A DNA stretch of 52,494 bases, taken from a virus. How positions within the stretch are numbered: position 1 is the first letter of the stretch; each line of letters starts with the position of its first letter. Location: positions 1-52,494 of IMG/VR virus record IMGVR_UViG_3300032931_000510. One strand, written 5' to 3'. The notes under the pieces are model-generated. The model was given only the letters and a program-made list of their open reading frames with translations, was not told where the DNA came from and did no database searches. Of this stretch, positions 1,517 to 16,036 are shown one piece after another. The translations under genes and the position numbers were made by a program.

Positions 1517-3859
1517 TTATGTACGGGTATCTGGTTCATCGAATTCTTCAGCATATTGCGTCGGAATACCGCGGAGGGTATCCATCATTTCCGACAAGGA
1601 CTTCTTGACTGGTGCGACCACAGGTGGCGGTGGTGGAGCCAAATGGAGCTTGGCCGCTTCAAATTTGCGAATGTCCTTATTCCATTCTCCATGCTGGTCT
1701 TTTGGGAGGGCATCGCGCTTCTTATACAGGGTATCTAAGTGCATTTGTGTTCCGGTATGACCGAGTTCCTGGGCCTTGTTGAAGGTACTCACCGGTCCCC
1801 CAACAGGAGAGGCTTCTGCGAGGAAGTCTTCAAAGGCTTCGTTGAGTGCCTTCTTCTTTGGTGCTGGGGCCGCTTGGGTCTTCGCGGTCTCGGCATATTT
1901 CTTCTTCTCTTCTGGTGTGGCAGGGGCCTCACGCTGTTGGAGCTTCCCATGCAAGGAGAAATGGGTGACGACCCCACCTTTTCCATACTTTCCAAATCCA
2001 TAATATTCCAATCCCTTGGCCCGTGCTTCCTCAGAGGCCTCAGAATTAGGATCGGGATTCGACTTGACAGGTTTCTTTTTGGCACCTGGGAACTTTGGAG
2101 GCGCATCCTTGACCAGTTTGCTGGCCATCTTCGGTTGATTAATCAGATTCCCCAATGATTTCGCAATCCATTGCTGGGCCGCTGGATGGGCAGGTGGTGC
2201 CTGGGTAAATTTCTTGACGGTCTTATGGAGATCGGTGAGTTGTTTCTCTTTTTCCGCGACGACCTCAGGTGGTGCCGTCTTATGATCTTCGGAATTATCA
2301 TATTCATGATAGTGATCGGTCCCAAACATCTTGGCATAATCGACCCGCTGATCCTGTGACTTCTGCCATTTGGCCGCGCGAATCTTCTCTGGGACCATGC
2401 GGCCGCCACGCTGACCTCGGGCGATATTGCGTTCGGCCGAGACTTTATCGGACGCATGAACAAAGACCAGTTTGGTATCATACCCCTCGTCTTCCAACAT
2501 GCCCTTGAGTTTCTTGATCTTGGTCTTATCATCCCCTGTGGAATTGATAATCATCCCATTCTTCCCATGCAGGGCCAAACGATGACGGAGATCGGTCACC
2601 GACTTGGCGCGGGCCCGCACCGCATCCCGTTGATCCTTTTCGGAATCTGGCATCGTCTTGTCCAGCTTCTTCTTGTCTATCATATATTCCAGGGCCACAT
2701 CTGAATTGATTTCGACCATACCATGACCGTCCAAGGCCTTGTGCATCACAAAGTCTTTACCTGATCCAGGTCCGCCTGCCAGGAAGACCGCCTTGAAGAT
2801 CCCTTGATCGTGGACACCTTCGGTCAACATCTGATAGTCCATCTGATGGTCTTCGTTCACGGTCTGTCCCTTTCGCACATCATGATACAATTCCTTGGCA
2901 TGAGCATGGGAGACCCCAGGCGCCACACCCTTCTTGAATTCATGGAAGTTGCCTGACTTGGCGTGTTCGCGCATCTTGCTGGCTGACATTCCTTCTACTC
3001 CTTTGGCATCGGGGTCCCGGTGACCTGCTGAATGGACTGTGATGCTCTTGAACTTATAGCCATGACCTTCTTTATCGAAGTGTCCGTTATATTTATGAAG
3101 GGAAGCATGGAATTCCTTGACCCGATCTGATCCCACGACCACATGGAGATGCTTGGTGCCGGCTTTATGGAGCAGGGCAGCATGATGAAAAATTGTCGGA
3201 TGTTTGGGGGACGAGGCGGTGACATGCGTACCTGGGAAGGCATGTTTGGCGTGTTTGAGCTTATCGGCCTGGCTCAGGGGATTCTTTTCGGCATCCTGGG
3301 AATGACTCAGCACCACATGATGATCGGCATGATGTTCCTGGGCGACTTCATGGACCTTATGGACGAGTTTGGCGTGGCCCGCGGTCGGCGGATTAATCCG
3401 CCCGAATGTCAAAACACTATGTTTCTCAACGGATTCCGTCAATGATCGAAAGGATTCCACCACAGACTTAGTAAAAGACTTGGGGTACTCTTGGGTCGCC
3501 TTGAGTAATTCGGGAAAGTTTACACTCATCTTATACACCGGGACCTGAGCATAGGGGTCCATGTTCAGGAGCGCGAGATATCGGTGATGCCCGTCCAAAA
3601 TGATATAGTCAGAGGAGATGATAATCGGTTGATCCAGGTCCTTGCGGTCCAGGGTCAGAAAATGTTCGATTTTCGCTTTGTTGAAGTGACCCTGAGAAGG
3701 GGTCAGATGGTTCGCAGGAAGACGGGTCTGGGTGCTGTGAATGTGCTTCTGCTTCGTCATCCAACGCAGATAATCCTGCACATCAGCGGTTTTCACTTGG
3801 GGGAGGGCTGAACGATCTATATTCAGTGAATATTTTGGTATGAACAGTTCAGACAACAT
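1517..3859 (-). CDS. Triple-domain protein: ParB-like, NMN adenylyltransferase-like, P-loop kinase
   Basis: A 780-residue fusion. Residues about 1-115 look like a ParB/sulfiredoxin-like domain, with ILDGHHR at 87-93. Residues about 147-335 form a nucleotidyltransferase domain with TFGRINPPTAGH at 151-162 (HxGH-type motif) and MSASKMR at 291-297 (ISSTxxR-type motif), as in NMN adenylyltransferases. Residues about 350-555 form a P-loop kinase with GGPGSGKD at 362-369, of polynucleotide-kinase/zeta-toxin type. The C-terminal 220 residues are Lys/Pro-rich. The NMNAT-plus-kinase pairing recalls NadR of NAD salvage, but the substrate is inferred. LTE-S (140-143), LTE-G (345-348), LNE-A (672-675) and LAE-A (680-683) match the T4 prohead protease consensus and fall between domains. 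Start: ATG at 3859 with a GAGGGG site; a TATAAATA late promoter lies about 40 bases upstream. Confidence 0.85.
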   Translation of the reverse strand: MLSELFIPKYSLNIDRSALPQVKTADVQDYLRWMTKQKHIHSTQTRLPANHLTPSQGHFNKAKIEHFLTLDRKDLDQPIIISSDYIILDGHHRYLALLNMDPYAQVPVYKMSVNFPELLKATQEYPKSFTKSVVESFRSLTESVEKHSVLTFGRINPPTAGHAKLVHKVHEVAQEHHADHHVVLSHSQDAEKNPLSQADKLKHAKHAFPGTHVTASSPKHPTIFHHAALLHKAGTKHLHVVVGSDRVKEFHASLHKYNGHFDKEGHGYKFKSITVHSAGHRDPDAKGVEGMSASKMREHAKSGNFHEFKKGVAPGVSHAHAKELYHDVRKGQTVNEDHQMDYQMLTEGVHDQGIFKAVFLAGGPGSGKDFVMHKALDGHGMVEINSDVALEYMIDKKKLDKTMPDSEKDQRDAVRARAKSVTDLRHRLALHGKNGMIINSTGDDKTKIKKLKGMLEDEGYDTKLVFVHASDKVSAERNIARGQRGGRMVPEKIRAAKWQKSQDQRVDYAKMFGTDHYHEYDNSEDHKTAPPEVVAEKEKQLTDLHKTVKKFTQAPPAHPAAQQWIAKSLGNLINQPKMASKLVKDAPPKFPGAKKKPVKSNPDPNSEASEEARAKGLEYYGFGKYGKGGVVTHFSLHGKLQQREAPATPEEKKKYAETAKTQAAPAPKKKALNEAFEDFLAEASPVGGPVSTFNKAQELGHTGTQMHLDTLYKKRDALPKDQHGEWNKDIRKFEAAKLHLAPPPPPVVAPVKKSLSEMMDTLRGIPTQYAEEFDEPDTRT

Positions 3860-3900: not shown

Positions 3901-3908
3901 TATTTATA
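3901..3908 (-). promoter_or_regulatory. Late promoter, perfect T4 TATAAATA box
   Basis: The minus strand reads TATAAATA, the canonical gp55-dependent T4 late promoter. It overlaps the TAA stop (3904-3906) of the GDPD-like gene and would start transcripts about 36 bases before the ATG of the triple-domain gene at 3859. A gp55 gene is present in this window at 47.6-48.2 kb. Confidence 0.75.
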
Positions 3909-4395
3909 CAATTTCGGTCTTCTCGCTCAGGTATGCCACCAGGGTGCCCACATGATCGGAACAGAGGCCAGATCCCTCATATCCAGCGAGTTCTTCACGA
4001 TAGGAGTCATCCACGGGCTGGTCGCGTTCTGGTATCACATACACAAAGGAATTCCCAGAGGACGGGGCCCCATAGAATCCCAACAAATCGCCCCAGGAGG
4101 TCAGGGCATAGGAATCAGTTTGGTGCCAAAATACATTCAATCCCTGTTCAGCCGCGGCCAGAAGGGCCTCAGGATTGCGGGCCCTGAGCAAGACCGAATT
4201 ACTCGCATACGGGAGCCAATCGAGATGAGGTTTCCATATCGGTTTCCGCTCACCAAACCAGAAACACCCCTCATGATACCAGGCATCCACCATGACATGA
4301 TATCCCAGATGAATCGCCTCATTCAAGTACTCTGGGGTATTTTCCCGTTCGGGCACTCGACCGAAGAGATTGCCTCGATGGGCGATGAGGATCAC
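3904..4395 (-). CDS. Glycerophosphodiester phosphodiesterase-like protein
   Basis: A 163-residue protein beginning IAHRGN with ENTPEYLNEAI a few residues later; this is the N-terminal catalytic signature (HR...E.T) of the GDPD TIM-barrel family. A second conserved His/Asp stretch (VMVDAWYHEG) follows. It is shorter than typical GDPDs (about 230-250 residues), so it is a minimal or divergent member. The family hydrolyses glycerophosphodiesters; here it may act on a lipid- or glycan-linked phosphodiester. The start codon is GTG at 4395 and overlaps the TGA stop of the upstream methyltransferase (GTGA), indicating translational coupling. It is the last gene of the glycan operon. Confidence 0.7.
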   Translation of the reverse strand: MILIAHRGNLFGRVPERENTPEYLNEAIHLGYHVMVDAWYHEGCFWFGERKPIWKPHLDWLPYASNSVLLRARNPEALLAAAEQGLNVFWHQTDSYALTSWGDLLGFYGAPSSGNSFVYVIPERDQPVDDSYREELAGYEGSGLCSDHVGTLVAYLSEKTEIV

Positions 4396-4955
4396 TGTGT
4401 CACCGGCTTCCAGGCAATCATTTTCAAGACGGCTTGGTTTCCTGGCGCAGGATTCCGAGTATCGGACTGACGAAAGGGATTCCTGAATTCATGGAGGACC
4501 AACAAAGTATGGAGCGAGGCGGCATCAAATCCATTGACATGCCCCATCCCGGCCAGTTTGTACTCGTCCACATTCTGAAATCCACCATACAGATAGCTCA
4601 TTGCGTTCCGCCATGGATCAGTATGTTGATTGAGCCAGCCGATGTTTCCGCATTGTTCTTTCCAATCGTTCTTGACAATACGCTCGGCAATCCAGCGCAC
4701 ATCAGGGACCGTGATTTCCAGCAGGCCGCCTGGAGCTAAGATACGAAACACTTCATCCAATACCCGATCCACATCAAAAATGGTGATATGCTCGACCACA
4801 TCGCCCATATACACTTTCGAAAAGGTATGTTCAGCAAAGGGATACGGTGTGATAAGCAAATCGTGGAGACAATTCACATAGGGCCATTCATGGAGGTCCA
4901 TGCGAACGTCGGCATCGGCCTTGGGGTGGGGACCTGAACCAATATCTAGGATCAT
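4392..4955 (-). CDS. SAM-dependent methyltransferase (class I)
   Basis: A 187-residue Rossmann-fold methyltransferase. Motif I is ILDIGSGPHP at residues 2-11, so the protein has almost no N-terminal extension. The post-I acidic segment DVRMDLHEWPY, the motif GDVVEHI and the LAPGGLLEITVPDVRW segment are typical of Methyltransf_11-type enzymes in polysaccharide clusters. It probably methylates a sugar or glycan product of this operon; the acceptor is not visible. The ATG at 4955 overlaps the TGA of the upstream nucleotidyltransferase gene, and its own stop overlaps the next gene. Confidence 0.8.
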   Translation of the reverse strand: MILDIGSGPHPKADADVRMDLHEWPYVNCLHDLLITPYPFAEHTFSKVYMGDVVEHITIFDVDRVLDEVFRILAPGGLLEITVPDVRWIAERIVKNDWKEQCGNIGWLNQHTDPWRNAMSYLYGGFQNVDEYKLAGMGHVNGFDAASLHTLLVLHEFRNPFRQSDTRNPAPGNQAVLKMIAWKPVTQ

Positions 4956-5383
4956 GATAATTCCTTCCAGCGTTTCAAAATTGCCGAGGAGGCATTCACT
5001 TTCTGCGTACCCCCGACACCAAAGACAAATTCACAATTCAGATCATCAAACGCGGCTTCAGCATTATTTAGTGCGGTCCGATCACCCCCGTTGGCCACAA
5101 TCAACGGGTAGTCAGGAAATTCCGCCCGTACCTGACGGAGCAAATCTAAGGCCGTACCATCTCGATCATCAAAGGCCCGGACACCAGAGACCATACGAAG
5201 ATGCTGGACCAAGTAAGACCGTTCATGCCAGGGAAGGAAATAGTTGCCCTTCTTGTTGATCAACCAGGCATCAGAATTCACTCCCACAATGAGGATATCG
5301 CCCAGGAACGAGGCCTCGTTCAGGTATTGGATATGGCCAGCATGGAGCGGATCAAATCCACCTGAGGCAATGACGATCTTCAT
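4952..5383 (-). CDS. Cytidylyltransferase-fold sugar nucleotidyltransferase (RfaE2/TagD-like)
   Basis: A 143-residue single-domain protein with SGGFDPLHAGH at residues 7-17, the HxGH motif of the cytidylyltransferase superfamily, and GVNSDAW and WHERSYLV segments as in HldE C-domains and TagD. Such enzymes transfer AMP or CMP from NTP to a sugar-1-phosphate or glycerol-phosphate. Next to a heptose-kinase-like GHMP kinase (6350-7351) a role in making a nucleotide-activated heptose is plausible, although the classical GDP-heptose enzyme HddC belongs to a different fold. The ISSTxxR-like element is NASSAILKRW near the C-terminus. Overlapping ATGA junctions exist on both sides. Confidence 0.75.
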   Translation of the reverse strand: MKIVIASGGFDPLHAGHIQYLNEASFLGDILIVGVNSDAWLINKKGNYFLPWHERSYLVQHLRMVSGVRAFDDRDGTALDLLRQVRAEFPDYPLIVANGGDRTALNNAEAAFDDLNCEFVFGVGGTQKVNASSAILKRWKELS

Positions 5384-6348
5384 GATGAGTGCCTCTGAAG
5401 ATAATCAAGATAGGCCCAACGGAGTCCATCATATAAGTTCACCTTCGGCTCCCATCCTAGCGCACGAATACGGGAAGAATCCGACAGCTTCGAGAATACG
5501 CCGTCGGGTTTTGTGGTATCAAAGTTAATGCCGAACTTACCGTCAAACCCTACCACACGGGCGATCAGTCTGGCAAAATCCTCGACCGTATGATCTCCCC
5601 CAGATCCCACATTGACCATATTACATCGTGGATCAACGCCTGCCCGAGAATGCCATACAGACTTCTCAGTATTCATCACCAGGAGGCAGGCGTCTGCCAG
5701 ATCGTCACAATAGAGAAATTCTCTCCGAGGACGACCCGTACCCCAGACCGTGACGGTTGACGATCCTGTGATCTTGGCCTCATGGAAGGTCCGAATCATG
5801 CCTGCGGTAATGTGTCCGCCTTCAGGATGATAGTTGTCATTGAGACCATAGAGATTGCAAGGCAGAACGGTCCGATAATCAGTCTTGAATTCCCGATTGT
5901 AGGACTCACACATTTTGATCCCGGCGATTTTCGCAATGGCATACGGTTCATTCGTGGGTTCCAATGGACCCGTCATGAGCGATTCTTCCTTGATCGGCTG
6001 TTGGGCATCAGTGGGATAGATGCAATTAGAACCAAGAAACAGGAGCTTCTTGATACCCGCCGACGCAGCACCATCAATCACATTCGTTTGAATCATGAGA
6101 TTTTCGTAGATGAACTGACCTGGATAGGTGTTATTGGCGAGGACACCGCCCACAAACGCGGCACACAAATACACTTGATCGATGTCGCCTCTGGAGAGGA
6201 ATAATTTGGTTGATTGGGTATCGGTCAAATCCAGTTCTTTATGACTCCGAATCAGGATATCCTGTTCACGCACCCCCGAACGAATTAAGGCCCGTATAAT
6301 AGCGGAACCCACTAATCCGCGGTGTCCTGCCACAAAAATTTTCCCCAT
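5380..6348 (-). CDS. fcl: GDP-L-fucose synthase
   Basis: A 322-residue extended SDR protein. The NADP-binding motif GHRGLVGSAI is at residues 8-17, the catalytic YxxxK appears in PYAIAKIAG (about residues 136-144), and FLGSNCIYP and LPCNLYG...DNYHPEGGH are hallmark segments of GDP-4-keto-6-deoxy-D-mannose 3,5-epimerase/4-reductase. It would convert the Gmd product to GDP-L-fucose, or act on the heptose equivalent. Length matches E. coli Fcl (321). Together with gmd at 10695-11666 the two-step GDP-fucose route is complete. It is separated by one base from the upstream kinase gene. Confidence 0.9.
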   Translation of the reverse strand: MGKIFVAGHRGLVGSAIIRALIRSGVREQDILIRSHKELDLTDTQSTKLFLSRGDIDQVYLCAAFVGGVLANNTYPGQFIYENLMIQTNVIDGAASAGIKKLLFLGSNCIYPTDAQQPIKEESLMTGPLEPTNEPYAIAKIAGIKMCESYNREFKTDYRTVLPCNLYGLNDNYHPEGGHITAGMIRTFHEAKITGSSTVTVWGTGRPRREFLYCDDLADACLLVMNTEKSVWHSRAGVDPRCNMVNVGSGGDHTVEDFARLIARVVGFDGKFGINFDTTKPDGVFSKLSDSSRIRALGWEPKVNLYDGLRWAYLDYLQRHSS

Positions 6349-6349
6349 G

Positions 6350-7351
6350 TTATTTCTCCTGGTCCTGATAGTCGTGATAGATCAATTGGGAACCTAAAAA
6401 CTCAAACGCCACAGGGACATGCTTGAGCTTCAAGGCCTCCTGGACTTGCTGTTGTTTCTCGGGTGGGGTCAAGAACAGAATAAATCCACCTCCGCCTGCG
6501 CCCAGGATCTTTCCCCCGACCGCTCCGGCGTTGATCCCTGCCCGATAGATATCATCAATCTCTGGATTGGTGATGCTCGTGGCGATATCCTTCTTGAGTC
6601 GCCATTGGGTGTTCAACAGAGAGGCAAACTCATGAATGCGATTATACTCCACACCAAATAAGACGGATTCGGCTTCTTTGGTCAGGTCCTGCATTTCCCT
6701 GAGATCCACGGTCTTGTTGAGAATATTTTCGATCTTCTTCTCAGTAATATCAAAGGAATTCCGCAACTTCGTGGTAAAGAATATCTGGACCCAGGATTCC
6801 AATTCCTTGACGACCTCGGCGCGAAGTGGCAAGGGATGACACATAAATTCCGATTGCCCACCAAACTCAATCCGATTGAATCCCCCAAAGGCCGCGGCCA
6901 CTTGATCCTGTGATCCCACCGACTCACCAAGGACTTCTTGTTCCAAGGTAATGGCCAGACGCGCCAATTCTCGCTTGGTCTTTTGTTGATGCTTCAGGGC
7001 AGAAAGACCGTGAATCAACGAAACCGCAAAACTGGAACTGGAACCGATCCCTGTCCGATTCGGTAAATCACCATGATGGGTAATATCGATCCCTGTGTTG
7101 ATCTTCATGTACTTGATCGCCTCACGAATCACAGGCACCTGAATCTGGTTGACCTCTTGGACTTCCTCTCGATCATAGTACCGTATCCGATACTTGTAAT
7201 CAAAGATGTCTGGCAAGGTTCGCAGGACCAAAAATGAATACTTGTTGATGGTCGTCGATAGCACCGCACCCCCATGTTCTCGATACCAGGCGGGATAATC
7301 GGTGCCTCCACCAAAAAAGGAAACCCGATAAGGGGTTCGGATGATTAACAT
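6350..7351 (-). CDS. hddA: GHMP sugar kinase, D-glycero-D-manno-heptose 7-phosphate kinase-like
   Basis: A 333-residue GHMP kinase. PYRVSFFGGGTDYP near residue 6, the ATP-binding GIGSSSSFAVSL loop near residue 100 and a C-terminal GGKILGAGGGGF motif are characteristic of HddA-type heptose kinases; the length also fits. HddA phosphorylates D-glycero-D-manno-heptose 7-phosphate at C1 on the route to GDP-heptose. A fucokinase or other sugar kinase is possible because these families are close. It lies between fcl and a Gmd/Rmd-like gene in the same operon, which supports supply of an unusual deoxy- or heptose sugar to a glycan. Confidence 0.8.
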   Translation of the reverse strand: MLIIRTPYRVSFFGGGTDYPAWYREHGGAVLSTTINKYSFLVLRTLPDIFDYKYRIRYYDREEVQEVNQIQVPVIREAIKYMKINTGIDITHHGDLPNRTGIGSSSSFAVSLIHGLSALKHQQKTKRELARLAITLEQEVLGESVGSQDQVAAAFGGFNRIEFGGQSEFMCHPLPLRAEVVKELESWVQIFFTTKLRNSFDITEKKIENILNKTVDLREMQDLTKEAESVLFGVEYNRIHEFASLLNTQWRLKKDIATSITNPEIDDIYRAGINAGAVGGKILGAGGGGFILFLTPPEKQQQVQEALKLKHVPVAFEFLGSQLIYHDYQDQEK

Positions 7352-7361
7352 TGAGAGGCTC

Positions 7362-8378
7362 CTATCGGGTCAAAAATTGTCCATAATTCAAATCCACTTC
7401 TTCGCGCCAGTAATTCAACAGATCCCGCATGGTCACCAAAAAAGGAATCTCAGGCTTCCATCCGGTATGCGCTTCAAACTTTCTGGTATCAGGCACTTGC
7501 AGATCGGCATCAATGGGACGAAGACGCTCTGCATCTAGCCCCACTCGTATCTGATCTTTCATTGATGAGAAAGAGAGGAGGGTCGTCAGCATGTCCCGAA
7601 TCGTCGCGGTATAGGTGCCTCCAATATTATAATATTGTCCGCCTATGGGATTGACCGTCAGGAGCATGTGATAGGCGCGTACGGCATCACGCACATCAGC
7701 AAAGGTGCGAAGACTCTCAAGATTCCCCACCTTGACCACAGGATCTTTTGTATAGCCCGCTTCGATCATCGCAATTTGTTTGGCAAACGATGATTCCGCA
7801 AACACATCGCCACGGCGAGGTCCGGTATGCGTAAACATCCGAGTGGTCATAATTGTCATACCATACGCTTCCGCATAATACCGTCCAATCAAATCTGTAC
7901 CGACTTTGGAAATCGCATAGGGTGACGCGGGATGAAAGGAACATTCTTCGTTGATTGGGAGCTTCTCCTTGGGAACTCGACCAAAGACCTCTGAGGAGGC
8001 ACAAACATGAATAATCGCGTCAGGCTTATGGTTCCGCAGAGATTCCAATAATCTCAGGGTTCCTTGGATGTTCGTATCTAGTGTATTGATCGGCGCTGTG
8101 AAACTCGTTTGAGGAAAGCTTTGTGCGGCCAGATGAAACACATAATCAGGCTGATGGTGCTTGATCACCCGATCCAGGCTCCCGGCATCAGTCAAATCCC
8201 CGTAGGTCAACTCGACTCGATCTTTTGTATTGATCCGACCTGTGAGATGTGCGATATTCTTGAGGGAATCGGCCCAGCGATACATACCGACGAGATGCCA
8301 ATCAGTGTGTTGTAACAGATAATCCGCTAAATGTGAACCGACCATCCCGGTGATGCCTGTAATCAATGCAATCGTCAT
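7362..8378 (-). CDS. NAD(P)-dependent GDP-sugar dehydratase/reductase (Gmd/Rmd family)
   Basis: A 338-residue extended SDR protein with GITGMVGSHLADYLL at residues 8-22 (GxxGxxG), the active-site segment SPYAISKVGTDL (YxxxK) and FTHTGPRRGDVF, as in GDP-mannose 4,6-dehydratases and GDP-6-deoxy-D-lyxo-4-hexulose reductases (Rmd). A second, more orthodox gmd lies at 10695-11666, so this copy probably acts after it (Rmd step to GDP-D-rhamnose) or on a GDP-heptose. Sequence alone does not decide. The ATG at 8378 overlaps the upstream TGA. Confidence 0.75.
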   Translation of the reverse strand: MTIALITGITGMVGSHLADYLLQHTDWHLVGMYRWADSLKNIAHLTGRINTKDRVELTYGDLTDAGSLDRVIKHHQPDYVFHLAAQSFPQTSFTAPINTLDTNIQGTLRLLESLRNHKPDAIIHVCASSEVFGRVPKEKLPINEECSFHPASPYAISKVGTDLIGRYYAEAYGMTIMTTRMFTHTGPRRGDVFAESSFAKQIAMIEAGYTKDPVVKVGNLESLRTFADVRDAVRAYHMLLTVNPIGGQYYNIGGTYTATIRDMLTTLLSFSSMKDQIRVGLDAERLRPIDADLQVPDTRKFEAHTGWKPEIPFLVTMRDLLNYWREEVDLNYGQFLTR

Positions 8379-9382
8379 GCTAACTCCGCGGCGGTAATCA
8401 TATCCTGTAAACGATTGACATAGGTATGTTTCTCTTTAATGATCGTCATTTGTCGAAGGATCTTGTCTAGGGTGCGGGGATCGTGTCTCATCTCACAGGC
8501 CACATCAAACAGCGCATAGGGATCGGAATGGAATGCCACATCTCCCCCAAAAAATTCATAGGTCGCGGGACAATTCGTTAATCCGAGTTGTCCATAGCTG
8601 ATGTTTTTCATGATACGACATGAGATATACTTATTCGCCAAATGATTGCGAGGTCTGACATCCAAGGCCAAATACGCATTCGTCACCGCCAAACGGATCT
8701 GTGCGATGGGCAACGGGTTCTGCCATGGGGTGTTGTAATAGAATGGCATCGCGTGTTCCACACAGGCCCGAATAAAGGGATCAAACATTTCCCGGTTGTC
8801 CTCACGAATCGTCCCACCAAAAAACGCATGATAGGGCTTCACGGGTATCCGATAGCGATCTTCAACACGAATCTCCTCTGGCATCAAATCTGTCGCCCAC
8901 ATTGAATAGAAGAGGGTCACAGGACCGTCTTGCTGAAGAAAGGAGGTGCCTTGGTTAATCGGCATACAGGCAGACTTGTCGAAGTGATAGGCATAATTTT
9001 TATCTGGTACCCCATCCACGCCCCAGTTACACGCAAAGCGGAAATCAATCAGCTTCCCGACCTTACCAAGATACATGGATGCCCCTGGATTGCCTTCGAC
9101 TGGACCTTTATTACCGAGATAATGAATCAGATAGGCCGAAGTCGGTCTCAGGGGTAATTGATTGGACAGTCCGTTTGCAAACACCAACCATTGCTCAGAG
9201 ATTATCAGGGCATGATCAAAAAATTCGACAGGGAGATGGGGAAGATCCCGATTATCCAACCAATAGGCCGGATACCCAAGATGCGAGGCGGCCCGCATCA
9301 ACGGCTCATGGACAAAGGCATGGGTATGCCCTGAATCGAACTTGGCGCCCCAGATGATGATTTTGTTATATTTTCGGTTCAT
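8375..9382 (-). CDS. Putative glycosyltransferase-like protein of the glycan operon
   Basis: A 335-residue soluble protein with no signal peptide. The N-terminal segment [18 protein letters not shown] and the C-terminal part, with DALFDVACEMRHDPRTL then an INxxH-like helix, recall GT-B glycosyltransferases of the CgeB/YkvP type, where the C-terminal half contains a 'time-limited conduct' of lists of host glycans; only the general layout is recognisable here. The position between two sugar-nucleotide enzymes and a FkbM methyltransferase supports a glycan transfer role. No catalytic residue can be named with confidence. It overlaps the downstream Gmd/Rmd-like gene by 4 bases and the upstream FkbM gene by 17. 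Confidence 0.55.
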   Translation of the reverse strand: MNRKYNKIIIWGAKFDSGHTHAFVHEPLMRAASHLGYPAYWLDNRDLPHLPVEFFDHALIISEQWLVFANGLSNQLPLRPTSAYLIHYLGNKGPVEGNPGASMYLGKVGKLIDFRFACNWGVDGVPDKNYAYHFDKSACMPINQGTSFLQQDGPVTLFYSMWATDLMPEEIRVEDRYRIPVKPYHAFFGGTIREDNREMFDPFIRACVEHAMPFYYNTPWQNPLPIAQIRLAVTNAYLALDVRPRNHLANKYISCRIMKNISYGQLGLTNCPATYEFFGGDVAFHSDPYALFDVACEMRHDPRTLDKILRQMTIIKEKHTYVNRLQDMITAAELA

Positions 9383-10019
9383 CGGCTACCCATCTCCCCC
9401 AACCCCAGACGGTATCCCATTGCATCTGTTCAAGGATATTATATCCTAATGGGGTGAGAAAGTCAACAATATTCTGATAGTGACCATTTTCAATAATCAA
9501 CAGCGGATGATGGGTCATGATGGTATCAATGGCGCCCTCCAAGGCCCGGAGTTCATACCCCTCAACATCGAGTTGAATCACATCCACCGTAGGAAACTGG
9601 AAGGCATCAATCGGAACAATTGGGAGACAGAGATTCTCCACACCGGTATCGATTCGTGCCCCCATACCATTGTCGACCATCGCGCCCATAGAAGGCTTCT
9701 CCCCAACGGCGCATTGCAGTTTGATCACATTCGGGAACTGGACATTATTGACCAAACAATAGAAATGCAGGGGATCAGGTTCAAACACATACACCGTCTT
9801 GAATAATTCCGCATAGCCACACGCATATAATCCAATGTGTCCACCGGCCGAGATGATTGTTCGTCGTTCGGTCGTATGGGTTTCCAGGACTCGTTTGAGA
9901 TTCGGCCAGTCAGGCGTTAGCACACCCCAATGGTCATCATTCACCGGCGTGGTCATCCACGCCGAATTACTAAGAAAGCTCGTCTCGTTTACTATGGCAA
10001 GATTTTTTAGCTCATTCAT
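9366..10019 (-). CDS. FkbM-family methyltransferase
   Basis: A class I SAM methyltransferase of about 217 residues. Motif I region is [20 protein letters not shown], followed by the typical acidic [17 protein letters not shown] and the C-terminal [19 protein letters not shown] segment that defines the FkbM family. The family often O-methylates sugars. I chose ATG at 10019 because it overlaps the TGA of the upstream gene as ATGA, like other junctions in this operon; an ATG 18 bases upstream also exists with a poorly spaced GAGGG. Confidence 0.85.
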
Positions 10020-10684
10020 GATTTGACGATGTACCATCCCTCATTGCTTACAGTCACCACTTTGCTCGGATCGGGGAAGAAGGTCTTCACGGCCTGTTGG
10101 ATGGTCGGGAGGTTCCAATCATGTCCGGCAAAGATTCCGCCCGGCCTGATGTGATCCCAATACAAGGTAAAATCCTTCATGACGCCTTCGAACGAATGAT
10201 CCCCATCTACGAAAATGAAATCCAGCAAAGACGATTGGGTCAAAAATTCTGTGGCAAACTGTTCACTGGTCTGATACCGTAATTGGGCGCGTGTACCATA
10301 GGCCGACAATCGCTGGAGGGCATCACCCTTCATACAGGCCTGGCGTTCCTCACTCATCATGGTCCCGTTCCAATCAATAAATGAGGGATAATGATCGATA
10401 CAATACAGCGTCTCAAGAGACGGCAGTTCTTTGAGGAACAACTCCGCACTAAACCCTAGGCAGGTCCCAATTTCCGCCCCTACAACCGGCGCAATTGACT
10501 TGAGCGGGTCGATCAGCCCTGAAGCTGAGATGTGATTCACGCCCCACTCAATTTGCTTCTGGACCCATTCTACTGGGGGCAAATGATGAAAGGGATCGGT
10601 TGATCCTGGTACCGGTCCTCCGGTGGCGCTATCGACCTCTCGGACAACCCCTCTGACGGTATCAATAATGAATGCTTCTCCCAT
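10016..10684 (-). CDS. Class I SAM-dependent methyltransferase (Methyltransf_24-like)
   Basis: About 222 residues. [15 protein letters not shown] is motif I, IDHYPSF the post-I acidic segment, and [19 protein letters not shown] plus [11 protein letters not shown] are the signature of the Methyltransf_24 family frequent in glycan clusters. It likely methylates a sugar made by the operon. Start: ATG at 10684 has AGGAGA seven bases upstream; a start at 10726 would run into gmd and lacks a better site. It is the second of three methyltransferases in this operon. Confidence 0.8.
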
Positions 10685-10694
10685 AATCAATCTC

Positions 10695-11666
10695 CTATGT
10701 TTTGTAATACCGAAGATCGGACTCAACCATCTCTTCCACTAATTCAGTAAAATCAATCGAATGTTTCCATCCCAATTTCCTATGGGCTTTTGTGGGATCA
10801 CCGAGCAAGACTTCGACTTCTGCTGGACGATAGAACTGGGGGTTCACGGTCACATAATTTATGTAGTTCAGACCCACATACTCAAAGGCCGACTGCACAA
10901 AATCCAAGACCGAATGTTTCAATCCTGTGGCAATGACATAATCATCGGGGGTCTCTTGTTGGAGCATGAGCCACATGGCCCGAACATATTCTTTGGCGTG
11001 CCCCCAATCACGGAGGGCATTGAGATTACCTAGGGACAGTTCTGTGGCTTGCCCCAATGAAATCTGGGCGACGGTCGAACTAATCTTTCGGGTCACAAAC
11101 TCAAATCCGCGGCGAGGAGACTCATGGTTATAGAGAATACCAGTGGAACAATGGAGTCCATACGCTTCCCGATAGTTGCGAGTCAAATCAAATCCTGCCA
11201 CCTTGGAGATCCCATAGGACGAACGAGGATGAAATCGGGTGCTTTCATCCTGGGGCATGGCTTCGACTTTCCCAAACATCTCGCTTGATCCAGCAAAATA
11301 AAATCGAGTACGGGGAGACGCATCCTTCAAGGCAGAGAGGACATGATGGGTGCCACCAATGTTCGTTTGGAGTGTGGAGAATTCATCTTCAAACGAATAG
11401 GAGACAAAGCTTTGTGCGGCCAGATGGTAACACTCGTCTGGTTGTAATTTGGTAAAGACTCGATAAATGCTCGGATAGCTTTCCAAGGAGGCCGCATGAA
11501 GATGGAGACGATCTTTGAACTCCAGCAAGCGGTGCATCCGATGGCTCGGGTCTTCGATGGCCACACGGCGGACAATACCATGGACTTCATACCCCTTTTC
11601 CAGGAGTAATTCTGCCAGATACGATCCATCCTGTCCGGTAATCCCGGTGATTAGTGCTGTTTTCAT
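10695..11666 (-). CDS. gmd: GDP-mannose 4,6-dehydratase
   Basis: A 323-residue protein with the textbook Gmd features: [23 protein letters not shown] at the N-terminus, [24 protein letters not shown], the active-site [10 protein letters not shown] (YxxxK), the [14 protein letters not shown] loop and [17 protein letters not shown]. It converts GDP-D-mannose to GDP-4-keto-6-deoxy-D-mannose using bound NADP, the committed step to GDP-fucose or GDP-rhamnose. It overlaps the upstream glycosyltransferase by 4 bases (ATGA). Length is close to the family norm of 330-370. Confidence 0.93.
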
Positions 11667-12640
11667 GGTTGTACCAATCGAAGGATATCATCCACACATT
11701 GTTGGCTGGTATGATTACCGATGGTATAGGACTCGGCATGATCCAGCGTGAGATCAGAGACGCCTTTGAATTGTCGCATATAGGCGATCAGTTCTTCTTC
11801 CCATCGATAAGTGAATCCATACTCCTGCATTGTTTCGGCGCCTGCCATGAGATAGGCCGCCCAGGGTGTGCGATTCAACATGGCTTCCAACAGCACGATA
11901 CCAAATCCCTCTGAGGTCGAGTGCATGATATACAAATCTGCGTCCTGAATGCCGGACAAGACTTCCCGACGATCTGGCATCATCAGGACCTTGATCTGGT
12001 CCGTGGGTCCAATCACCGGAGCAGACTGCCAACAATCGTATCCCGTCAGGACTAAGGTCACATCCTTTCGATCCGCCTTTCGGAACGCCTCAACTAAACG
12101 GACCATATTTTTATTGGGCCAATAACCACCACAAGAAATAAACATATACTCGGTTGTGATCCCATAACGAGTCCGAAAATCCCCTTTGGGTTTCTCAGAG
12201 ACCGAATCATTCAAATTGATCCCATAACGGTATTGGATACACTTCGCTTCCACCCCATACTTCTTCACATGTCTCCAATCCGCCATGGTGGAGGCCCCGA
12301 TATATCGCGCATTCTGGAGGGCTTTCACGCAGGTCGGAGAATTCGACGGAAGAATCAACAGATACAGGATGGGCGACGGAATATTCGGCGCATGTTCCAA
12401 GACAAAGTTTTGCACATTGACATCGCCGCCGTGGACAATGACCAGATCCCACGGATGGAGGAGGAGTTCTGGGTTTTCCGTGACATGCACCCCATTCAGA
12501 TCCCCTTGGTGTTGACCTGCAAAGACCCAGGTGTCTACGCCGCGGCGAACCATTTCCTCGGCCATGTTCTTGACATTGTTCTCAGATCCGCCTGGATAGG
12601 GGGCATACCGATGCACGACAAACAGTATTCTAATTGCCAT
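11663..12640 (-). CDS. Family 4 (GT-B) glycosyltransferase
   Basis: About 325 residues. The N-terminus RILFVVHRYAPYPGGSENNV is the glycine-rich entry of GT4 enzymes, and MHSTSEGFGIVLLEAMLNRTPW in the C-terminal third is the EX7E nucleotide-sugar-binding motif of the family. FISCGGYWPNKNMVRLVEAF marks the start of the second Rossmann domain. It is cytoplasmic and likely uses a GDP-sugar made by this operon. ATG at 12640 is preferred over 12652 because it sits closer to the preceding stop, but the ribosome site is weak for both. Confidence 0.88.
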   Translation of the reverse strand: MAIRILFVVHRYAPYPGGSENNVKNMAEEMVRRGVDTWVFAGQHQGDLNGVHVTENPELLLHPWDLVIVHGGDVNVQNFVLEHAPNIPSPILYLLILPSNSPTCVKALQNARYIGASTMADWRHVKKYGVEAKCIQYRYGINLNDSVSEKPKGDFRTRYGITTEYMFISCGGYWPNKNMVRLVEAFRKADRKDVTLVLTGYDCWQSAPVIGPTDQIKVLMMPDRREVLSGIQDADLYIMHSTSEGFGIVLLEAMLNRTPWAAYLMAGAETMQEYGFTYRWEEELIAYMRQFKGVSDLTLDHAESYTIGNHTSQQCVDDILRLVQP

Positions 12641-13508
12641 ACTTGGCCTCATATATCGCCTTCAGGGCAGGCACACGATCATACTGATGGACCAAATAAT
12701 GTGGGGTACCGTGGGAGGTACAGACTTGATCGTTCAACACAATGGGAGCAGGTTCCAAGAGGGACGGCCGATAGACTTCTATTTTATGAGGGTCCATTGT
12801 GGTACCAAGTTGTGCGGCCCATCCATCTTCTGATGTGGCACCATAGAAATGGCGATGATAGGCGTCAGTGTTCAAGAGGATATTCAAGGCCGCTTGATCG
12901 GGTCCGCCGCCTCCAGGTTGATGATGTTGGGTCCCATTGGACAACAAATAGATTGACAGGAATAGTCCCAGGGCCGTCTCGAATTTTGCGGCAAACGATC
13001 CGCAATTATAGATAGGGGAATCCAACAAGGTTTGAGCCACAGGGGCACCAAACGAGGAGATCAGATTATTCACACCCCATTCTTCATCCCGATAGTGCAT
13101 CGATTCACTGGCCGCCACGACAGAAGGGGATTCACCTTGATTATCCCACTGATCGAAATACGCTGAGGGATTGCGCTGAAAGACCACATCCTTGACATCG
13201 GTGGCAATGACATACCGAATATCCTTCTTCATCGCAGGAGACAGTTGGCGGAGGAAGATCCAATAATGCAGGAAGCGATTCACTACAATAGACAATGAAG
13301 GATCGGCCGTAAAGGTACCAAACCCGTCCACATTCAATCCACCAAGAAGAAAGCCTCGGCGCGACAGTTCGGCAGAGGTCTCCTTGTCGATGTTGTAACA
13401 CACCAACATCTTATAGCCGTCGAACCCCGATTGCTCTAAGGAATTGGCCCACAGTTTGATTTGATCGAAGTTGTAGTTGCTGATTGCCCCAATTACTAGG
13501 TCTTTCAT
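12630..13508 (-). CDS. Putative nucleotide-diphospho-sugar glycosyltransferase (GT-A-like)
   Basis: A 292-residue protein, first gene of the glycan operon. YVIATDVKDVVFQRNP near residue 104 has the layout of the metal-binding DxD motif of GT-A enzymes, and YNCGSFAAKFETAL and GGGGPDQAALNILL follow as in GT8/GT34/GT77-like families (acceptor loop and conserved D-Q). No membrane segment is seen. Late promoter GATAAATA lies about 29-35 bases upstream, so the whole 13.5-3.9 kb operon should be expressed late. Confidence 0.7.
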   Translation of the reverse strand: MKDLVIGAISNYNFDQIKLWANSLEQSGFDGYKMLVCYNIDKETSAELSRRGFLLGGLNVDGFGTFTADPSLSIVVNRFLHYWIFLRQLSPAMKKDIRYVIATDVKDVVFQRNPSAYFDQWDNQGESPSVVAASESMHYRDEEWGVNNLISSFGAPVAQTLLDSPIYNCGSFAAKFETALGLFLSIYLLSNGTQHHQPGGGGPDQAALNILLNTDAYHRHFYGATSEDGWAAQLGTTMDPHKIEVYRPSLLEPAPIVLNDQVCTSHGTPHYLVHQYDRVPALKAIYEAKYGN

Positions 13509-13542: not shown

Positions 13543-13550
13543 TATTTATC
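13543..13550 (-). promoter_or_regulatory. Late promoter GATAAATA in front of the glycan operon
   Basis: The minus strand reads GATAAATA, one base from the T4 late consensus. The TAA stop of the ligase-like gene (13546-13548) is embedded in the box. The ATG of the first glycan gene (13508) lies about 30 bases downstream. Confidence 0.65.
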
Positions 13551-14778
13551 CCCAGTTTTTCACCGCATTGAAGTTGGCGCTCGAAAAATTCAAACGATCT
13601 ACCAGCTTCACGACCCCACCTTTCAAGTGGTCCACGGCCACAAAGCCTTCAGGTTTCGTCACGGTCAATCCCCCATCGGCAGAGCGAAGGAAGGTGCCCA
13701 TAGACTTCGCCGTTTCCAATTTTCTGACGATCTGTATTTTAGCATCATTGAGCATTTTTGTCAAGAGAAAAATTTTAACCAGTTCGGCATAGGACGAACG
13801 GTAAAACCGCAACCATTCACTCTTCTCAGTCAGACGCTTATGTTTGGTCGCAGGCAGCTTCGCTTGTAAAATAGATTCATTGGCCTGTTGTTCCACCCAA
13901 CGAGTCAATGCCAGCACATGATCTTTGGCAGTCGGTTGCGCTTTTCCTGCTCGTATCACGGAATTGTTGTACTGCTTGATCTGTCCTAGCAGCGTGGCAT
14001 CCAAGGAAATACGATTCAACACTTTACCATCAATACTCTGAAACACACGGCCCGCCTGGGCTAATAGATCCCCCAGGGCCGTCGATTCCGCTTCGGTAAA
14101 TGTCGCCGTACCTGATTGATCCACAAAGGACGCATCCCGATACCAGACATCAGCCGTATGACGCAGGGCACCGATATCCACTTTGAAAGACGCCTTCATC
14201 GATGCCATCGTGGGACCATGATAGGTCGTATGAAACACCACACCCAACTTGGAGGCGCGGATACGGTCGGCCAAGATCGAGGCACTTGGAATGGCATACA
14301 CAATCGTATTCGGCTGAAAGGTGAGGTACTTCTCTCCGCCGATCACATCCTTTTGGAGATCGCCATGGGTATACAGCATATCGCCTTGAAGGACACCAGT
14401 GATACCGAGTTTGGGTAGATGTTCCAAGGCAATCAGCAGCTTGTTCTGAAGACCTTCGGAGGCATGGTTCTTCTTGATATCCGCCGGGGTATAATTCAAT
14501 TTCGCCTCTTTGGCAAAGACCCCTTTGGTTCCCACAAAGAATCGACCGTTATCGGGATTGAGACCACAAAAAATAGCCGGTGCTCCGTCCCATTTGGTCG
14601 TGATATTGATATGAGATTCCACATGACCTGTCAACATCTTATGGAGAGACAACAGAAAGGTCACGGCCCTCCGAGCACCAGTCACACCGCCATTAAAGAC
14701 TTCATCTTCCAGGTGTTCAAGATGGAGGTTCTTGCCTTCGGCGGATTCTGTGATAAAGGAGGTAAAGGATGTTGTCAT
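13546..14778 (-). CDS. DUF6267-like protein with nucleotidyltransferase KxDG motif and capsid-targeting-like N-terminus
   Basis: A 410-residue protein. TTKWDGAPAIFCG (about residues 61-73) has the KxDG motif I of covalent nucleotidyltransferases (ATP-dependent ligases and capping enzymes), followed by FFVGTKGVFAKEAKLNY and GVLQGDMLYTHGD, which could be motifs III-IV. It resembles a family known from T4-like aquatic phages (DUF6267). The N-terminus SFTSFITESAEG closely resembles the T4 internal-protein leader (FIAEA): ITE-S at 9-12 would be a prohead protease site. Start: ATG at 14778 with AGGAA upstream; the longer frame upstream lacks one. Co-transcribed with the next upstream gene from a late promoter. 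Ligase-like chemistry is inferred from the motif. Confidence 0.8.
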   Translation of the reverse strand: MTTSFTSFITESAEGKNLHLEHLEDEVFNGGVTGARRAVTFLLSLHKMLTGHVESHINITTKWDGAPAIFCGLNPDNGRFFVGTKGVFAKEAKLNYTPADIKKNHASEGLQNKLLIALEHLPKLGITGVLQGDMLYTHGDLQKDVIGGEKYLTFQPNTIVYAIPSASILADRIRASKLGVVFHTTYHGPTMASMKASFKVDIGALRHTADVWYRDASFVDQSGTATFTEAESTALGDLLAQAGRVFQSIDGKVLNRISLDATLLGQIKQYNNSVIRAGKAQPTAKDHVLALTRWVEQQANESILQAKLPATKHKRLTEKSEWLRFYRSSYAELVKIFLLTKMLNDAKIQIVRKLETAKSMGTFLRSADGGLTVTKPEGFVAVDHLKGGVVKLVDRLNFSSANFNAVKNWG

Positions 14779-14791
14779 AGTGGCTTTCCTG

Positions 14792-16036
14792 TTATTTGGC
14801 AATAACAAACTTACCGGATAAATCGGAACGGGAAGTAATATACGAAAACACCAAACGAACAAATTCTGTGCTTTTCTTTTTGTCGCGTTCTAACCAATCC
14901 CTAAAGATAGGAATGACTGGATTCGACACATTGAGCGCACTAGATTCGCTCCTAGCTCTATCATATGCCTCACGATTACGGGTTTTTAGTTGTGTCATAA
15001 CAGGGGTACGAACCAGTTGCTTATGTTTGTCATTTCCCGTCTCATATAGGGTGTTGAATTTCCGGCTAAATGTGGTATTACCATCGGTGATAGACATAAG
15101 ATCAGCAAGAATAGAAGCCGAACCAATCGATCCTTCGCGGGCTTCCTTTCCTGTTTCCACAACCTCAAATTTCATTGCAGCAGTTGACGCATCGTGTCGC
15201 CATTTCAAACGCCGACCTTTATTCGCGGTATCGAAATATATTTCAAACGATCTACTAACCGTTTTCCCATCAGCTTTAGGTTTGACCCATGGCGACCACA
15301 CAACATGCCCGGCATACACATATTCTCTCATGTAGTCGATTTCATGCTTCCGATCAAAATTGACTTTGAGGATTGTGACCTCTTTTTTCGTTGTCTTTTT
15401 AAGCGACAATGGAAGTAATTCCCCTAGATCGATCAAATGACCCACTTCGGAGTTGAGTGTGATGAAATCCAAAGGAAGACTCTGATGTTCCAAGAGAAGG
15501 GTTTTGATTTTTCGTTTCGCCTTTTCAGACGCAAAATAAATGTCGGCAGGACTCCATTTATTAACATCCCCAAATACCAGATGATGTTTCCCACCTGGTA
15601 GTGAGGACGCTTTCTTCTGTGTCTCGTTCGCCAACTTAAATAATTCCTCAACCGATTTCATCACATCTTCATCACCGCGTGTATAGATGAAGTCAGACCA
15701 CTTCGGTTGTTTAATGCGAGTGAACTTACCTGATACATCAGTGATATCACTAATCAACTTCTTTGCGATATTCATCGAAGAGACATACCAATCTAGATTT
15801 TTACTAAAAAACGACTCCAGGTCCCTCAACGTCACCCCAGGAGTTTTTACATGGGTCGAAAATACCGTGGCCAGGGGCATTGATTTTTGAGTCTTTTCCC
15901 ATTCCATCTTAAATGAGGAAAAGGTGGGATAGACCTCAGTATCTAACATTTTCTTGGCACCAGCAGCACCAAGATAATCTGCAAGCGCACAAAATAATGC
16001 TTGGGCACTTTCAGCTAAAGACGTTGGATCAGCCAT
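14792..16036 (-). CDS. Late protein of unknown function, 414 residues, LAE-S near N-terminus
   Basis: I do not recognise the family. The N-terminus ADPTSLAESAQALF contains a prohead-protease-like LAE-S site at residues 7-10. A segment LVFGDVNKWSPADIYFAS (about residue 160) recalls K-W-x-P-x-D-I motifs in some phage nucleases, but this is only a resemblance. The body is Lys-rich and mixed alpha/beta (VTILKVNFDRKHEIDYMREYVY). Start: ATG at 16036 with a strong GGAGGA seven bases upstream; an ATG 12 bases earlier would overlap that site. It is 13 bases upstream of the ligase-like gene and shares its late promoter. Confidence 0.75.
   Translation of the reverse strand: MADPTSLAESAQALFCALADYLGAAGAKKMLDTEVYPTFSSFKMEWEKTQKSMPLATVFSTHVKTPGVTLRDLESFFSKNLDWYVSSMNIAKKLISDITDVSGKFTRIKQPKWSDFIYTRGDEDVMKSVEELFKLANETQKKASSLPGGKHHLVFGDVNKWSPADIYFASEKAKRKIKTLLLEHQSLPLDFITLNSEVGHLIDLGELLPLSLKKTTKKEVTILKVNFDRKHEIDYMREYVYAGHVVWSPWVKPKADGKTVSRSFEIYFDTANKGRRLKWRHDASTAAMKFEVVETGKEAREGSIGSASILADLMSITDGNTTFSRKFNTLYETGNDKHKQLVRTPVMTQLKTRNREAYDRARSESSALNVSNPVIPIFRDWLERDKKKSTEFVRLVFSYITSRSDLSGKFVIAK

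Follow-up and report, generated by a model that had tools for sequence, protein, structure and literature searches.

A probable head-cargo polyprotein in a T4-type virus fragment, with targeting-like motifs at its module joints

In phage T4, the prohead protease gp21 cleaves after L/I-x-E, and in the tag of the internal protein IPIII positions 4 and 7 were assigned to targeting, positions 8 and 10 to processing (PMC9026906). Packaged polyvalent proteins contain ParB-like domains, predicted to be nucleoside triphosphate (NTP)-regulated nucleases, and have been reported to be scarce in cyanobacterial lineages (PMC5512222). Purified virions of S-SM1 (T4-GC190; PMC3037559), S-SCSM1 (PMC9602691), S-SZBM1 (PMC9146016) and S-CREM2 (PMC10665884) have been found to contain members of an adenylyltransferase family. 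Here we describe an open reading frame (ORF) of 780 amino acids (aa) at 1517..3859, minus strand, of IMG/VR record IMGVR_UViG_3300032931_000510, a virus fragment of 52,494 bases that carries genes of T4 type and is referred to in full as the window. The ORF joins a ParB-like domain, a nucleotidyltransferase and a kinase in one chain, and these modules swap partners in other loci, the multidomain trait of polyvalent proteins. It probably encodes a head-cargo polyprotein that is cut by the prohead protease.

The ORF lies where a sequence-only reading of this DNA had placed it, and a Shine-Dalgarno-like gaggggttttc stands directly 5' of its ATG. No stop codon interrupts the reading frame in any of eight distinct full-length orthologues (L001-L004 and L181-L184), and the equal architecture in independent contigs rules out an assembly artefact as the source of the fusion. 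A DNA search for close relatives gave none for the window. The ParB-like domain, module 1, covers aa 1-131 (3467..3859; this and all further features of the ORF are on the minus strand), carries the motif DGHHR and matches phrog_2859. Module 2 (aa 146-333, 2861..3424) is an adenylyltransferase of the HIGH superfamily with PPTAGH and SASKMR motifs, and module 3 (aa 352-571, 2147..2806) is a P-loop kinase of zeta-toxin/polynucleotide kinase (PNK)/adenylate-kinase fold, with Walker A AGGPGSGK and LID RGQRGGRMVP.

Cleavage-like sites stand at the joints between these modules. Two had been described in the sequence-only reading and were found as claimed: LTE-S at aa 140-143 (site 1, 3431..3442), within VESFRSLTES, and LTE-G at aa 345-348 (site 2, 2816..2827), within MDYQMLTEG. 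A motif search added two strict sites that it had not reported, the pair LNE-A 672-675 and LAE-A 680-683 in NEAFEDFLAEA (site 3, 1811..1846), the sequence that fits the T4 targeting pattern best. A secondary site, VNE-D at aa 334-337 (2849..2860), lies on the C-terminal edge of module 2, with LHE, LKE, VKE or LNE at the corresponding place in relatives. The pattern [LI]xE[AGS] occurs four times in the protein, where shuffled sequences would give about 1.06 (p 0.018), and LTE[AGS], a narrow motif picked after the earlier sighting, twice against 0.04 (0/5000 shuffles). An AlphaFold model of the whole protein was built from a 28-sequence alignment (mean predicted local distance difference test score, pLDDT, 69.6). 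All four strict sites appear to fall in inter-domain linkers, since each lies within a segment of pLDDT below 50 (these include 132-143, 338-351, 662-677 and 680-700, with one site in each); the four segments amount to 63 residues, and 4/4 sites are thereby confined to about 8% of the chain. When module 2 is modelled alone (pLDDT 92), its first strand starts a few residues past the first proposed cut. Domain boundaries thus fit the sites, and the mismatch that would have spoken against cleavage was not seen. Cutting would convert the intact 87.3 kDa protein to fragments of 16.5, 22.8, 36.2 (348-674; 37.1 if to 682) and 10.9 kDa (683-780). The first two agree with the pieces near 16 and 23 kDa proposed earlier, and the proposed 36 kDa piece arises only with the third cut.

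The same modules are encoded as separate ORFs in other T4-like phages, where these motifs stand at the N-terminus and form a capsid-targeting sequence of T4 type. Thus HTVC008M has a separate kinase that starts MIPFILKEGLYDPGIF, and Melnitz a separate nucleotidyltransferase that starts MKKFSEIIEARGDTAVFTFGRFNPP. Across a comparison set of 80+80 IMG/VR loci, standalone nucleotidyltransferases begin with MKSFLELVEE, MKFREFLEEQ, MLSFKQFVTEA and similar sequences, the first of which aligns with site 1, and their fused counterparts have VESFRSLTES or MESFRALTEA at this place. Standalone kinases begin with MKSFEQILSEG, MKQFKQIIQEG or MIPFILKEG, and the fused counterparts have FEELLxEG; certain standalone ParB-like proteins start MKKFKNFVAEL. 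VESFRSLTES and MDYQMLTEG are thus located where the standalone modules have their N-terminal motifs, and the fusion has therefore retained former N-terminal tags at its joints. The linker of nucleotidyltransferase-kinase fusions contains [LI]xE in 33/34 cases and [LI]xE[AGSN] in 23/34 (background of the latter 1.2%), as counted in nonredundant fusions from loci retrieved with the nucleotidyltransferase alone; an earlier count of 25/26 for the kinase joint was partly biased, because E[GH][VL][HY]D formed part of one pattern used for retrieval. Among ParB-type fusions, the linker ahead of the kinase varies from a few to >100 residues and the xE site is kept on both sides. An independent fusion in DLP_6 has LTE-A at its joint. 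Chance motifs are ruled out by the recurrence at module starts together with the background rates. In L003 (aa ~390-432) and L184, the nucleotidyltransferase-kinase linker has a zinc-ribbon-like insert, CxxC...CxC, flanked by its two LxE sites.

The T4 capsid-targeting sequence comprises about 10 N-terminal residues, is hydrophobic or aromatic at positions 4 and 7 and closes with LxE. With the T4-type tag written as [FY]xx[FYLIM][LIVM]xE, the N-termini of the standalone modules have this shape. A survey of 1594 ORFs from the compared loci found the tag in 59% of DUF6267 proteins (nonredundant relatives), 44% of nucleotidyltransferases/kinases, 43% of a 287-aa family, 80% of HAD-like and 38% of adenylate-kinase-like proteins. 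Most of the control families (sugar-nucleotide, helicase, tail and others) gave 0%, and the background, measured after internal methionines, was 0.34%. Further candidates for injected enzymes with N-terminal targeting-like tags are an adenylate-kinase-like protein (L133:670-1251) and a HAD-like protein (L032:3080-3766), whose tags are MVQTFVNFLKEA and MKSFLEFLAEA.

Published virion proteomes bear on the fate of such tagged proteins. The virion adenylyltransferases begin with MKKFSAFLNEA, MRFRQFIIEA and MKNFSSFLTEA in S-SM1 gp190, S-SZBM1_140 and S-CREM2 gp154, respectively. For S-CREM2, all 219 annotated proteins were checked against the 52 that had been published as virion proteins, and the pattern was sought in the first 14 residues. 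Six non-structural proteins carried the T4-type pattern and 4/6 are found in virions (Fisher p 0.004); with a sharper FxxF-type pattern, chosen post hoc, the tagged proteins in virions were 5/5 and the tagged undetected proteins 0/167. The tagged set includes a SAM hydrolase, an APH-like kinase and the cytidylyltransferase. A Cas9-annotated, virion-detected protein of S-CREM2 (L172 7704-10313 (-)) carries LRFASFMAEAA, which resembles a targeting tag, at residue 19; the start codon of this protein may be misplaced.

The protease and a comparable substrate are found in relatives. Among 12 related records, Peptidase_S77 (gp21) is present in 9/12 and Gp23 in 10/12, and both occur in the ParB-type-fusion records G001, G002, G003 and G010. 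Major capsid proteins of relatives have a conserved [LM]xE-[AST] site near residue 50 (MLHE-AAP, MMNE-AAP, MLSE-TA, MLNE-SAP), with LTE-A at the corresponding place in S-SZBM1 and S-CREM2. The capsid site is of the same type as the joint sites, and by analogy with T4 the capsid protein would be cleaved there. Cutting of a polyprotein at its joints by the prohead protease, the central proposal of the sequence-only reading, thus gains support from the fitting boundaries, the motifs at the fronts of separate genes, gp21 in fusion relatives and the similar capsid site.

Comparison shows that modules which other T4-like phages encode separately, each with an N-terminal tag, are fused here into one ORF in which the tag is now the joint linker. 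It suggests the following route. The tags would take the polyprotein into the prohead core, and gp21, judging from motif identity, would cleave after LTE/LNE/LAE during maturation of the capsid protein. The ParB-like piece would have ~16.5 kDa, the adenylyltransferase 23 kDa, the kinase 36-37 kDa and the C-terminal piece 11 kDa; all would be ejected along with the DNA and act at once in the host. We lean slightly towards the broader view that marine T4-like phages have a modular injection system, in which a portable tag on unrelated enzymes becomes an internal cleavage site on fusion and the maturation protease frees the enzymes in the head before injection.

Several points weigh against cleavage of a packaged polyprotein. 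The genes for gp21 and gp23 were located outside the window contig. The protein's own N-terminus, MLSELFIPKYSL, has no targeting tag, the pattern being met internally (FEDFLAEA) and at the N-termini of standalone homologues, and we found no published report of an internal targeting sequence functioning. [LI]xE is a short motif, and most DUF6267-nucleotidyltransferase fusions are without it. Site 1 is absent from L182 and L183 (2/8 orthologues), the third site takes the form LxE-[AGS] in only 3/8, and certain joints have H, D or E in the P1' position, as in L003 and L004 with LTE-H ahead of the kinase; the loss of sites in orthologues that the sequence-only reading had named as a refutation was thus seen in part. 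The S-CREM2 comparison rests on few tagged proteins, two of them tagged yet undetected, the virion detections concern standalone forms only, and the authors of the virion proteomes allowed for co-purification.

Some of these points would suit a polyvalent protein that acts as a single uncut chain, whether it is packaged or produced in the cell, its LxE sites being relics of old N-termini. Injected multidomain chains are common among polyvalent proteins (PMC5512222), and the loss of the first site in 2/8 orthologues and the H, D or E at P1' speak for this reading. We nevertheless hold this to be unlikely: the motif at the kinase joint is kept in 33/34 proteins despite changing linker sequence and length, the sites lie in linkers predicted to be disordered, and [LI]xE sites exposed in the prohead should meet gp21. 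That each module is translated on its own from an internal start codon, the motif marking an old gene start, is barely credible. An ATG (M340) lies five codons 5' of LTE-G and a GTG pair (V133/V134) ahead of site 1, but neither has a clear ribosome-binding site, as opposed to the gagggg at the ORF start, and the frame is open throughout the eight orthologues.

An ordinary intracellular metabolic fusion, made in infection for NadR-like salvage of nicotinamide adenine dinucleotide (NAD) and not as virion cargo, would account for the succession of adenylyltransferase and P-loop kinase, which is that of NadR, and for NAD-type adenylyltransferases being the top profile and fold matches; NadR and NadM are carried by phages (PMC9503650). 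It is decidedly improbable, however, given a kinase from outside the NadR kinase family, a standalone homologue in the virions of four phages and a tag common to unrelated proteins. A head-cargo polyprotein cut by the prohead protease remains our preferred explanation.

What the pieces do is suggested by their families. The adenylyltransferase keeps the TxGH-type and SxSxxxR-type motifs and matches CTP_transf_like at 151-297 (E 0.0023, just under the Pfam cut-off). The NAD-type adenylyltransferase profile TIGR01526 was found in 35/56 nucleotidyltransferase homologues (best 2e-6), with no match of the window protein at E 0.05. NadD enzymes make up 12/15 best solved folds (template modelling score ~0.5-0.6), and a sequence search of the PDB gave partial CoaD matches only. 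The kinase (355-503) passes the gathering thresholds of Zeta_toxin (E 4.9e-12, 46.1 bits vs 22.3) and AAA_33 (E 1.4e-11, 45.3 vs 27), also has Pfam matches to CPT, and is nearest to zeta toxin, bacterial polynucleotide kinase and adenylate kinases, with Pnkp and adenylate kinase as Foldseek matches. It matched no NadR-kinase family in profile searches, and membership in NadR is ruled out by its zeta/PNK/adenylate-kinase-like family. For the full-length model the top Foldseek matches were ATP sulfurylase/APS-kinase, at a root-mean-square deviation of ~20, and therefore only the order of the two folds is common; this candidate was rejected. In some loci the kinase keeps its tag although fused to a different HIGH-type nucleotidyltransferase (GGFQPFHAGH), itself with an N-terminal tag (L092:5323-7899, L100:5320-7611).

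The names ParB-like and NMNAT-like, given from the letters alone, thus hold at fold level. The NadR-type label proposed along with them is right only in part: the nucleotidyltransferase is nearest to NAD-type adenylyltransferases, but the kinase is of another family, and salvage of NadR type would be at most a tentative reading. Combinations of a HIGH-type transferase and a P-loop kinase often serve in cofactor synthesis. Our leading guess, a tentative one, is for this reason that the enzyme pair rebuilds or alters the pool of nicotinamide-type dinucleotides, perhaps against an NAD-depleting defence; repair of nucleic-acid ends comes second.

The ParB-like module was recognized through its relatives, of which 23/38 matched ParBc_2 (best E 7.3e-5) and 6/38 ParB_N, the window sequence alone being without a match; ddrB-ParB (PF18763) matched weakly in 1/38 (E 0.019). 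It was modelled poorly (pLDDT mostly 25-67), and a sequence search of the PDB with this domain gave nothing convincing. Some of its homologues in other phages are annotated as DarB-like antirestriction proteins or as structural proteins, and the module resembles the predicted NTP-regulated nucleases of packaged polyvalent proteins. Its attachment to enzymes, noted as unusual in the sequence-only reading, is indeed a ParB-like domain joined to enzymes but less odd than claimed, ParB-like domains being known parts of polyvalent proteins (PMC5512222). Towards the C-terminus, a small conserved domain, GLEYYGFGKYGKGGVVTHFSLHGKL (aa 607-643, 1931..2041; pLDDT ~80-90), precedes a helical segment of the AlphaFold model, module 4 (aa 692-740, 1640..1786). 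The small domain, GLxYYGFGRYGxxGxVTHxSxxGKL, is also found directly after the N-terminal tag in virion-detected S-CREM2 gp14 (L172 10579-12846(-)) and S-SM1 gp190 (L277 2276-3439), and is perhaps a packaging domain shared by the three proteins.

Two further genes of the window carry related motifs. Downstream, an ORF on the minus strand that is open at the contig end (1..1554, at least 518 aa) has several further xE[AGS] sites between segments of low similarity and is possibly a second cargo polyprotein; for this ORF and two C-terminal pieces, no PHROG family was matched. In the same conserved block, a DUF6267 protein encoded by a gene of its own (13546..14862, minus strand) starts MTTSFTSFITES, which resembles a targeting tag. 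The stretch from DUF6267 to the polyprotein contains an island of sugar-nucleotide and glycosyltransferase-type genes (3904-13508, minus strand), whereas in HTVC008M, DLP_6, Melnitz and C48C1 just one short ORF takes its place.

If correct, our interpretation provides a sequence rule for finding the proteins injected by T4-like phages, a largely unknown set, and explains the presence of the cytidylyltransferase and other enzymes in cyanophage virions. It suggests a parallel in bacterial viruses to polyproteins, with the parts freed by the maturation protease of the head and not by an embedded one. The tag has already been employed in T4 for loading foreign proteins, and tandem internal tags could load several enzymes from one gene.

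In conclusion, the polyprotein combines the published concepts of T4 internal proteins and polyvalent proteins. We found no report of prohead-protease-cut cargo polyproteins in T4-like phages or of targeting tags in cyanophages, in a literature search that left most subscription papers and all bioRxiv preprints outside its reach. With T4 IPI, IPII, IPIII and Alt the system shares the tag pattern, the L/I-x-E cut motif and, in fusion relatives, the T4-type head genes; unlike these proteins, which have one N-terminal tag each, it lacks a tag at its start and carries several in its interior, where they separate the enzyme modules. With polyvalent proteins (Iyer et al. 2017, PMC5512222, including DdrB-like ParB) it shares the character of a shuffled multidomain phage protein in which ParB-like domains occur alongside kinase domains of zeta-like type and for which packaging and injection are predicted. 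Polyvalent proteins are thought to be freed by embedded peptidases, which are common among them and not universal, whereas a Pfam search found no peptidase domain in the 780-aa protein and the head maturation protease would cut it in trans. The cyanophage cytidylyltransferase/NMNAT-like protein T4-GC190, seen in purified virions, has a homologous adenylyltransferase domain, lies in the same conserved neighbourhood and carries an N-terminal tag, but is usually a separate gene, and no link of it to a targeting tag was found in the searchable papers. NadR has the same succession of a HIGH-type adenylyltransferase and a P-loop kinase; the polyprotein differs from it in the family of its kinase and in the proposed cleavage site between the two domains.
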